Virus record (IMG/VR): IMGVR_UViG_3300025570_000047 | Coordinates: 1 to 35,933 of that record | Reading direction: 5' to 3' (one strand) | DNA: 35,933 nt | From: a virus | In this document: piece after piece, positions 2,994-4,983 of the stretch | How positions within the stretch are numbered: the first letter of the stretch is position 1 | Layout of the letters: each line of letters starts with the position of its first letter | Program-made: the position numbers and the translations under genes | Notes under the pieces: model-generated | The model's database searches: none | Seen by the model: the letters and a program-made list of their open reading frames with translations, nothing else | What the model was told of the DNA's origin: nothing

Positions 2994-3314
2994 CTATTTC
3001 TTTTTAGAACTTATTGCTTGTGATGTAAAGAACGCCGCAACGATACCAGCAACAGCAACAAAGTATGTTGGTGCCATATCGCCTAATGTAGCTTGAGCTT
3101 GATCCAAACCTGCTAGAGAGGCTAGAACAACAGCGAAGGGATAGAGCAACAAACCACCTAGTGCAAACCAGGTCATGTTTCTCTGCGCATCTCGCATAGC
3201 GTCTTGATCTTCAAGTTCTTTTCGTTTAAATTCAAGGTACATTGCTTCTTCTTCACTAGATACATTACCATCACCGTTAGTATCGGCTGGGTGAAATACT
3301 TTTTCTTCTGACAT
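2994..3314 (-). CDS. Small EF-hand protein with two membrane segments
   Basis: This 106-aa protein has three parts. Residues 11-22 (DTNGDGNVSSEE) are a textbook EF-hand calcium loop, with Asp/Asn at positions 1, 3, 5 and 7, Gly at 6, Val at 8 and Glu at 12. A charged helix follows (23-46). Two hydrophobic segments lie at about 47-70 and 82-102, before a short Lys tail. Only one EF loop is present, whereas cellular EF-hands usually come in pairs. The gene has a good Shine-Dalgarno (GGAG) just upstream and lies between the chaperone-like ORFs and the tape-measure-like gene. As far as I recall, similar proteins occur in marine T4-like phages without known function. A role in tail assembly at the membrane or in calcium-dependent DNA entry is speculation. 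Confidence 0.8.
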   Translation of the reverse strand: MSEEKVFHPADTNGDGNVSSEEEAMYLEFKRKELEDQDAMRDAQRNMTWFALGGLLLYPFAVVLASLAGLDQAQATLGDMAPTYFVAVAGIVAAFFTSQAISSKKK

Positions 3315-3324
3315 TATTACTCCG

Positions 3325-3492
3325 TTATTTTTGTTGAGCTTTCTGATCTTCTATGAAATCGACTAGCATATCCACATATAAGTCTCTTTCATATGGCAAT
3401 AAATCTTCTATATCCGCTATACTATATTTATGATGTTGAGCCATCGAGAAGACTGTTTTATAGTAATTCCCTAAGCTGGTGTGACTCAACAT
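3325..3492 (-). CDS. 55-aa ORF, likely the -1 frameshift extension of the gp26-like chaperone
   Basis: This ORF begins at an ATG that shares one base with the TAA of the gp26-like gene (TAATG) and encodes 55 residues including HHKYSIADIEDLLPYERD. It is acidic and predicted helical, with no membrane segment. No Shine-Dalgarno precedes it: the upstream bases are a T-tract. A -1 slip at T-TTT-TTT (3498-3504) would enter this frame through Ser-Leu-Met and yield a 289-aa fusion with the first 232 residues of the upstream protein. Expression by reinitiation at TAATG or from an internal ATG at codon 17 is the alternative. Short ORFs of this type follow the same gene in related phages, as far as I recall. 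By analogy with lambda T in the gpGT fusion, it would bind the tape measure protein. Confidence 0.78.
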   Translation of the reverse strand: MLSHTSLGNYYKTVFSMAQHHKYSIADIEDLLPYERDLYVDMLVDFIEDQKAQQK

Positions 3493-3504
3493 TAGAGAAA
3501 AAAA
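3420..3504 (-). promoter_or_regulatory. Candidate -1 programmed ribosomal frameshift signal
   Basis: Read on the - strand, codons TTT TTT preceded by T form a perfect X-XXY-YYZ slippery heptamer at 3504-3498. A 5-base spacer (CTCTA) follows, and then an 11-bp stem: AUGUUGAGUCA (3492-3482) with UGGCUCAACAU (3443-3433), all Watson-Crick except one G-U pair. A loop heptamer (TACTATA, 3465-3459) is exactly complementary to TATAGTA at 3426-3420, just beyond the stem, so an H-type-like pseudoknot is possible, although this second helix is almost all A-T. The distance, frame and direction of shift all fit. It is not experimentally shown here. Confidence 0.68.
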
Positions 3505-4193
3505 GTGTCTGTGCCCTCTAGTACGATTTCTTTACTCTCACCTGCGCTATTAATATAATCAGTCTGAAATCTCAGCTTGGGCATAGTATCGAAGAATTGC
3601 TGAAGAGCGTCAACAGTGGCACCAGGAAATGACTCTATGAAATCAGATATCTCTTCCTTAGAGAAATCTTTTAAGCTCTGAACTTCATCTCCTGCTACTA
3701 CAGATTCTATACATGAAGCTATTACATCAAACAACGATTCTGTGGGATGTTCCACTACTTTTAGAAACAGCGAAACTTCATCAAGTCTAGGATAACGCAT
3801 CATTAGATACATATCATCATTTACTGGGATTTCTTTTGTGTGTCCTTCTGGTATGACTAGGTGTATATCGTCAACCTCTAACTCTATTTCAATAGGACCG
3901 CCTGTTTCTGGATCACTGATAATAAATTCAATCTTATTATTGACCGACTTAGCTCTGACTTGCAACATAATATACTCCAAATCGAACATCGCTATGGAGT
4001 CAACATCTAAACCCGGGCAACAGTTTGTCGCAATTTGCCTCATTGCCAATACCATTTGATTGGGATCTTTTGATTCTTGAGCTATCAACAGAATCTTCTC
4101 TTCTTTTACAGTAAATGGTCTATACTTGACAGTCTCGTCTGTTGATGGCAACTTTGTCTCAAATAGAGGCAAATCAATCTTTGGCAATTTCAT
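3492..4193 (-). CDS. 26: gp26-like protein (T4 baseplate family PF12322), candidate tail assembly chaperone
   Basis: This 233-aa acidic protein has the layout of the T4 gp26 'baseplate hub' family. The start is a basic-hydrophobic segment, with KYRPFTVKEEKILLIAQE at about residues 23-40. DLEYIMLQVRAKSV (about 71-84) matches the T4 gp26 stretch LEYVIFQLRK, and a beta-rich middle and helical C-terminal half follow. T4 gp26 is 208 aa. In T4, gp26 is needed to assemble the hub. Here the gene ends at a slippery T-tract and overlaps a small ORF, and a candidate tape measure gene follows, the arrangement of lambda G/GT. I infer a chaperone role during tape measure folding or tail assembly. An AGGAGA Shine-Dalgarno precedes the ATG. 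Family membership is well supported; the chaperone role is inference. Confidence 0.85.
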   Translation of the reverse strand: MKLPKIDLPLFETKLPSTDETVKYRPFTVKEEKILLIAQESKDPNQMVLAMRQIATNCCPGLDVDSIAMFDLEYIMLQVRAKSVNNKIEFIISDPETGGPIEIELEVDDIHLVIPEGHTKEIPVNDDMYLMMRYPRLDEVSLFLKVVEHPTESLFDVIASCIESVVAGDEVQSLKDFSKEEISDFIESFPGATVDALQQFFDTMPKLRFQTDYINSAGESKEIVLEGTDTFFL

Positions 4194-4224: not shown

Positions 4225-4983
4225 TTAGAACGAATCTATAATGTTGTTTATGTTACTTACTTGGTTTAAAGCATCTTGTATGCCTGTTGGACGTTTAATG
4301 CTCTGTATCATGCTTACAGTTGTGTTAATACTAGAGAACCAGCCCAATAGATTACCTGTGAATGAGCCTGGTCTGTCAGATAACACTTTACCTCTGGTTG
4401 AGCCAGATACTTTGAGTTCATCGTATGAGAATCCCACTGGTAACGTCATCACATCGCCTGTGCTTTCCCATGACGTTTCAATACCGCCTACGTTGATAGG
4501 ATATAGTCCAGAGAACTCGTATAGATACTCGACCTCTTGGGTGTTCTGAGAGTATACGGCAACCTGCATCGTAGCAGAATAATCGCTCTTGTATCCCATC
4601 TCAAACGGCAACTGATTATTTACTCCTGCAAACTGACCACCGCTCGTATCGTAATTGACTATCGATTGCGCCCATCTATGAAACAGCTTCATGACACCGA
4701 AGTTAGAGTCTACCATAAATGATACTGGTAATACGGGGAAGCTCATCGACTGTGGTCTACGAACAATTGGTCCAAATGCCTGTGGCTGAACTTCGCTTGT
4801 TTGTATATCCATCTCTGGTAAAGTCACAGTCTTACAGTAAAACTCTAGATCACGGGTGATTGGTATCTCATTCAATTCATTCAACAATGATCTAGGCATA
4901 GTTATTCTAGCAAAGAATAGGTTAGTCTTAGCTACCCCATGCTCGCTTAGTTTTGAGTTAAAATCGCTTATGTTAAATGGCAT
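4225..4983 (-). CDS. 54: gp54-like baseplate tail-tube initiator (tail tube fold)
   Basis: This 252-aa protein belongs to the tail-tube protein superfamily. In T4, gp54 sits on gp48 at the top of the hub and starts polymerisation of the gp19 tube. Matching stretches are LEFYCKTVTLPEMDIQT (46-62), FPVLPVSFMVDSNFGVMKLF followed by WAQSIV, as T4 gp54 has LVISFRMD and MQDWVNSV, and LYPINVGGIETSWES before a beta segment, as T4 has CIPISVSAPELSYDG. It is shorter than T4 gp54 (320 aa). It could instead be another tube-fold paralogue, but gp19 is usually about 163 aa and none is seen nearby. The Shine-Dalgarno is AGGAAA. Its partner gp48 is on the opposite strand at 6884. Confidence 0.72.
   Translation of the reverse strand: MPFNISDFNSKLSEHGVAKTNLFFARITMPRSLLNELNEIPITRDLEFYCKTVTLPEMDIQTSEVQPQAFGPIVRRPQSMSFPVLPVSFMVDSNFGVMKLFHRWAQSIVNYDTSGGQFAGVNNQLPFEMGYKSDYSATMQVAVYSQNTQEVEYLYEFSGLYPINVGGIETSWESTGDVMTLPVGFSYDELKVSGSTRGKVLSDRPGSFTGNLLGWFSSINTTVSMIQSIKRPTGIQDALNQVSNINNIIDSF

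Follow-up and report, generated by a model that had tools for sequence, protein, structure and literature searches.

The window analysed here is the whole of IMG/VR virus record IMGVR_UViG_3300025570_000047, a metagenome contig of 35,933 bases. The tail genes considered lie on its minus strand in the order tail tube, predicted chaperone, tape-measure candidate. The first of them (4225 to 4983) encodes the tail tube protein, and this assignment of the gene upstream of the chaperone is borne out by matches to phrog_45 (E 2.6e-35) and, above its cut-off, to Pfam PF23849. It is followed by the gene for gp26 (3492 to 4193), a 233-aa protein that matched PF12322 (E 8.6e-57; 192.8 bits against a curated cut-off of 24.5) and phrog_150 (E 1.1e-59).

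The 3' end of the gp26 gene reads ACT TTT TTT CTC TAA and contains, in frame with gp26, the slippery heptamer T_TTT_TTT (3504 to 3498). A spacer of 5 nt (CTCTA) separates the heptamer from an 11-bp stem with one G-U pair, the 5' arm of which occupies 3492 to 3482 and the 3' arm 3443 to 3433. In the loop, TACTATA (3465 to 3459) is exactly complementary to TATAGTA (3426 to 3420), downstream of the stem. The -1 frame remains open for 57 codons after the slip (3498 to 3328) and stops at 3327 to 3325, giving a predicted fusion product of 289 aa. Read from an ATG at 3492 to 3490, which overlaps the gp26 stop as TAATG and is preceded in the window by no Shine-Dalgarno sequence, the same frame would encode a small ORF of 55 aa. 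Heptamer, stem, loop complementarity and 57-codon frame all lie where the original prediction had placed them. Among window ORFs of at least 80 aa there are four in-frame TTTTTTN sites, and the gp26 site is the only one that opens a long -1 extension past the stop; at the other three the -1 frame closes 3 codons beyond the gene's own stop, or before it.

Downstream of the extension lies a gene for a 106-aa protein (2994 to 3314); its positional counterparts in Methylophilales phage Melnitz-3 and Pelagibacter phage HTVC008M are 79% and 67% identical to it, respectively. The protein matched no family above cut-off; it has an EF-hand-like N-terminal motif (DTNGDGNVSSEE) and two hydrophobic segments. 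Next is a gene of 565 aa (1287 to 2984), the product of which is hydrophobic and rich in Gly, Ala and Ser. The original prediction had placed a candidate tape measure gene downstream after one small gene, and on position this gene is a plausible tape measure. Sequence backing is weak and comes by way of HTVC008M, whose gene in the tape-measure place matched several tape-measure PHROGs (best E 8e-12). The 565-aa gene has no direct tape-measure PHROG match of its own, and BLAST found no similarity between this candidate and T4 gp29 or the positional counterparts from other phages, HTVC008M among them.

Relatives of gp26 were gathered by searches with the gp26 peptide, which were blind to the slip site, and isolates were added. 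The site was covered in 257 loci, of which 144 were nonredundant (under 85% DNA identity); as the loci are mutually related, the counts given here are descriptive and are not probabilities, and the number of loci overstates the independent evidence. A heptamer of the form T_TTT_TTY precedes the gp26 stop in 257/257 of these loci, including KVP40, P-SSM2, S-SM2, HTVC008M and phiN3, with the qualification that in two Rhizobiaceae phages it ends in G. The forms found outside the Tevenvirinae were T_TTT_TTT, T_TTT_TTC and, in those two phages, T_TTT_TTG; one or other was present in 144/144 nonredundant loci, and six T then C was the commonest (95/144). The heptamer sits at -7 to -31 from the gp26 stop, usually with one codon intervening.

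The nucleotides of the site are constrained beyond what the protein would require. The base preceding the T run is T in 144/144 loci, though the codon to which it belongs encodes S, T, D, N, A, G or H, and the first Phe codon of the site is TTT in all 144 loci versus 68% elsewhere. As a control, internal Phe-Phe pairs of the same genes were found to be encoded as T_TTT_TTN in 1/138 cases. A conserved -1 frameshift signal joins gp26 to the small ORF, and frameshifting at it is what we infer from these patterns. The lone apparent exception (L171) has a stop within gp26, and its T run and slip site are still present. This sequence (1501 to 1989) is from a 99% identical relative of HTVC008M, and the TAA inside its gp26 reflects a misassembly or else a disrupted gene.

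A metagenome contig such as the window might carry a homopolymer sequencing error in the T run, with gp26 and the small ORF really forming one continuous frame. However, the same two-frame layout is found in the complete isolates KVP40, P-SSM2, S-SM2, HTVC008M and phiN3, as well as in all contigs examined. Because isolate genomes share the layout, an error of this kind is refuted, and its probability is vanishingly small.

An open -1 frame of 54 to 73 codons follows the heptamer in every related locus. Over 6,450 codons this frame contains 0 stops; the other two contain 626 and 633. Thirty-nine loci lack an ATG within the first 12 codons of the -1 frame, and there pN/pS over codons 3 to 11 was 0.23 in the -1 frame versus 1.40 and 0.96 in the other frames. 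When GTG and TTG were excluded too, the values were 0.21 to 0.33 in the -1 frame versus 0.86 to 3.1 in the others. By these measures of sequence change, coding selection on the -1 frame sets in at the slip site rather than at a start codon.

This result bears on whether the small ORF stands as a gene in its own right, as its annotation as gp51 has it, and is translated from its own ATG by coupling to the gp26 stop. The TAATG of the window would also allow coupled initiation of a 55-aa protein, and a separate 'baseplate hub assembly catalyst' gene is annotated in several records. However, coding selection is already in force before any start codon is reached, and conservation of the ATG fails even among close relatives, where the overlap with the stop varies (TAGCG, TGACG, TAACG). 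There is no ATG, GTG or TTG among the first 8 codons of the -1 frame in 38/144 loci, and none anywhere along the -1 ORF of Desulfovibrio phage 7757. Within the first 25 codons of the -1 frame, a potential start is preceded by a Shine-Dalgarno sequence in 15/144 loci, compared with 100/144 for gp26's own start. A separate gene would also leave the invariant heptamer unexplained, and is considered very improbable. Comparison of relatives had been proposed as a check on the frameshift, and it came out in its favour: heptamer and -1 frame are conserved while the stop-ATG overlap varies. Relatives with the small ORF but with no slippery site, or with a strong Shine-Dalgarno sequence, which the original prediction had named as evidence against frameshifting, did not turn up.

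The downstream stem was compared within the window's clade, where 93% of cells are paired and double-sided changes occur at 4/11 pairs, among them a change from U-A to C-G seen in 14 sequences. The 70 bases 3' of the heptamer gave a mean z of -2.3 against shuffles, versus -0.6 for random windows inside gp26. The 11-bp stem covaries across relatives, and its stimulatory role is putative. The stem of the original prediction therefore stands, but the pseudoknot proposed with it holds only as complementarity in the window. In the clade 67% of the pseudoknot cells are paired, there is a double-sided change at 1/7 pairs and many relatives break pairs, so that neither the loop heptamer nor its downstream partner gains support from relatives. 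The bases concerned fall within codons for conserved residues.

Other clades have other elements. The cyanophage clade has a short hairpin of another kind; a count found each of its five pairs to have double-sided changes, although RNAalifold predicted no consensus structure for the cyanophage group. This hairpin, the self-complementary GGTCC-ATAT-GGACC of loci L091 to L168 (alignment A2, columns 18 to 31), starts 10 nt after the heptamer and replaces the long stem as a putative stimulator. Two further loci (L027 and L032) have a compact hairpin (TGCTAGGTTATTGCAACCTAGCA in L027) in place of the long stem at near-equal spacing, which suggests a swap of one putative stimulator for another.

The covarying stem, at the usual ribosomal spacing, also counts against slippage of RNA polymerase rather than of the ribosome on the T run. 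Transcriptional slippage would fit a signal that consists of a run of T, and there are 8 T at the HTVC008M site, for which a near-identical relative is likewise cited. However, the commonest form has just six T followed by C, and a run of six T is short for polymerase slippage. Furthermore, the run always lies in the ribosomal X_XXY_YYZ frame; the search required this frame, and no locus failed it. Polymerase slippage is accordingly rated as a highly unlikely source of the long product.

Comparison with T4 indicates what the two products correspond to. The short product of gp26 aligned by profile with almost the entire length of T4 gp26 (E 2e-18), whereas the fused product aligned with T4 gp51 (hhalign, E 1.8e-14), covering gp51 residues 6 to 244 of 249. 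The -1 tail alone gave a profile match to gp51 residues 203 to 244 (E 8e-7), and the -1 peptide matched phrog_634 (E 6.4e-23), a family named 'baseplate hub assembly catalyst', which is T4 gp51's name. T4 gp51 itself matches phrog_150 lengthwise and phrog_634 in its C-terminal part. The T4 counterpart of the fusion is one continuous protein, a further point against the small ORF being a gene of its own. Because the short product aligns with gp26 and the fusion with gp51 end to end, T4, as judged from sequence, uses two genes for the products that this phage obtains from one.

Genes 26 and 51 are separate in T4 and in Acinetobacter phage 133, and full-length gp51 relatives are present in over 1,300 records, mostly from enterobacterial, Acinetobacter and Aeromonas phages. 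T4, which has gene 51 for the long form, has lost the slip site in gene 26; outside the subfamily to which T4 belongs, essentially all the T4-like phages examined retain the slip signal. In T4 gene 26 (L088, 4303 to 4929, minus strand) the final Phe-Phe is kept but coded TTC TTT, without a slip site.

The AlphaFold model of gp26 has a pLDDT of 87. When PDB matches of its N-terminal 84 residues were re-ranked with VIA-align, the best were 3fgx (Z 7.5) and the HK97 tail assembly chaperone gp13 (2ob9; Z 7.4), with the next at 4.7; these Z scores are under 8 and can arise by chance. The HK97 match, at 11% identity, covers only one domain of gp26, and Foldseek alone gave E 0.37 for 2ob9_B. The fold match agrees with a chaperone for the modelled domain but cannot establish one on its own. 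The -1 domain was modelled with low confidence (pLDDT 71) as three helices. Pfam scans of the small ORF found no homology to chaperone families, and a PDB sequence search with both profiles gave nothing meaningful.

Taken with the conserved slip signal, the collinear homology to T4 gp26 and gp51 supports the view, put forward in the original prediction, that gp26 acts as a tail assembly chaperone and is not a structural component of the hub. Judged on these sequence comparisons, gp26 and the -1 ORF very probably form a frameshifted chaperone pair, with a short form of 233 aa (TAC-N) and a long form of 289 aa (TAC-NC). The majority of ribosomes would end at the gp26 stop and release the short form. 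On T_TTT_TTT a minority would move back by one base, with the stem beyond the 5-nt spacer as an aid; they would then read past the gp26 stop and append 57 residues, so that the -1 extension (3325 to 3498) would become the C-terminal domain of the long form. If the pair works as lambda G/GT does, the tape measure protein would be coated by the short form, and tail tube protein would be brought in by the long form; both binding roles are presumed from lambda G/GT (PMC5009743), and the proportion of ribosomes that slip is likewise presumed. In T4 and its subfamily the long form comes from the separate gene 51.

The products of lambda G/GT and P2 E/E' resemble those of the window, being a short and a long product of one gene with a -1 slip near its 3' end (PMC5009743), the frameshift of the window being predicted from sequence. 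The lambda and P2 chaperones likewise lie between the tail tube and tape measure genes (PMC5009743), the tape measure of the window being a candidate. They differ in that Pfam scans detected no sequence similarity between the window and the lambda and P2 families, and the window's phage would have a contractile T4-like tail. The T4-like gp26/gp51 chaperones belong to the same family as the window's proteins, its short and long products corresponding to T4 gp26 and gp51, but T4 has two separate genes without frameshifting and the window one gene with a -1 slip site. In the work of Vladimirov and colleagues the chaperones of T4-like phages are reportedly gp26 and gp51.

A conserved poly-T -1 signal (GTTTTT motif) also ends the myovirus chaperone gene of Vandenendeviridae and Andersonviridae (PMC12846349). 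These are other phage families, and their likeness to gp26 is by the slip signal (PMC12846349). A 2016 review described the chaperone frameshift as widespread in long-tailed phages, with T4 as the exception (PMC5009743). Going by its title, a later paper identified the tail assembly chaperones of T4-like phages (Vladimirov, Gautam, Davidson, Virology 2022, 566:9-15). According to PMC10885494, which cites Vladimirov et al. 2022, there are T4-like phages that have, in place of frameshifting, a short gene together with a longer fused one, consistent with gp26 and gp51. Poly-T -1 signals in the TAC-N genes of T4-like phages are credited to Vladimirov et al. 2022 in PMC12846349.

The supposition that this family had gone unreported was therefore wrong for the family, on the title of the 2022 paper, and probably wrong for the frameshift, on the credit in PMC12846349. 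The chaperone identity was already reported in 2022 and, to judge from that credit, the frameshift probably was too. The small ORF was also already catalogued, as phrog_634 or 'gp51 baseplate hub assembly catalyst'. Two things may be unpublished: how far the signal reaches over the T4-like superfamily, and the RNA elements specific to each clade. A broader picture, in which -1 frameshifting is ancestral and nearly universal for the chaperone of the T4-like superfamily, RNA elements are clade-specific, the two-gene state of T4 arose by later duplication and loss of the slip site, and the whole is unpublished, is speculative and rather doubtful.

Frameshifting at gp26 would connect the marine T4-like phages, as well as KVP40 and T4, with the tail-length machinery that long-tailed phages share. 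It would also correct annotation, in which gp26 is called a baseplate hub protein and the extension is omitted or begun at an internal ATG. The gp26 gene is present in about 590 phage genome records, and in none of the isolate records examined is a joined gene annotated. The -1 region is left unannotated in ACG-2014j, ACG-2014d, S-BM3 and Aeromonas phage G2 (L270, L271, L269 and L263, respectively), while other records have it start roughly 50 nt beyond the gp26 stop, at an internal ATG.
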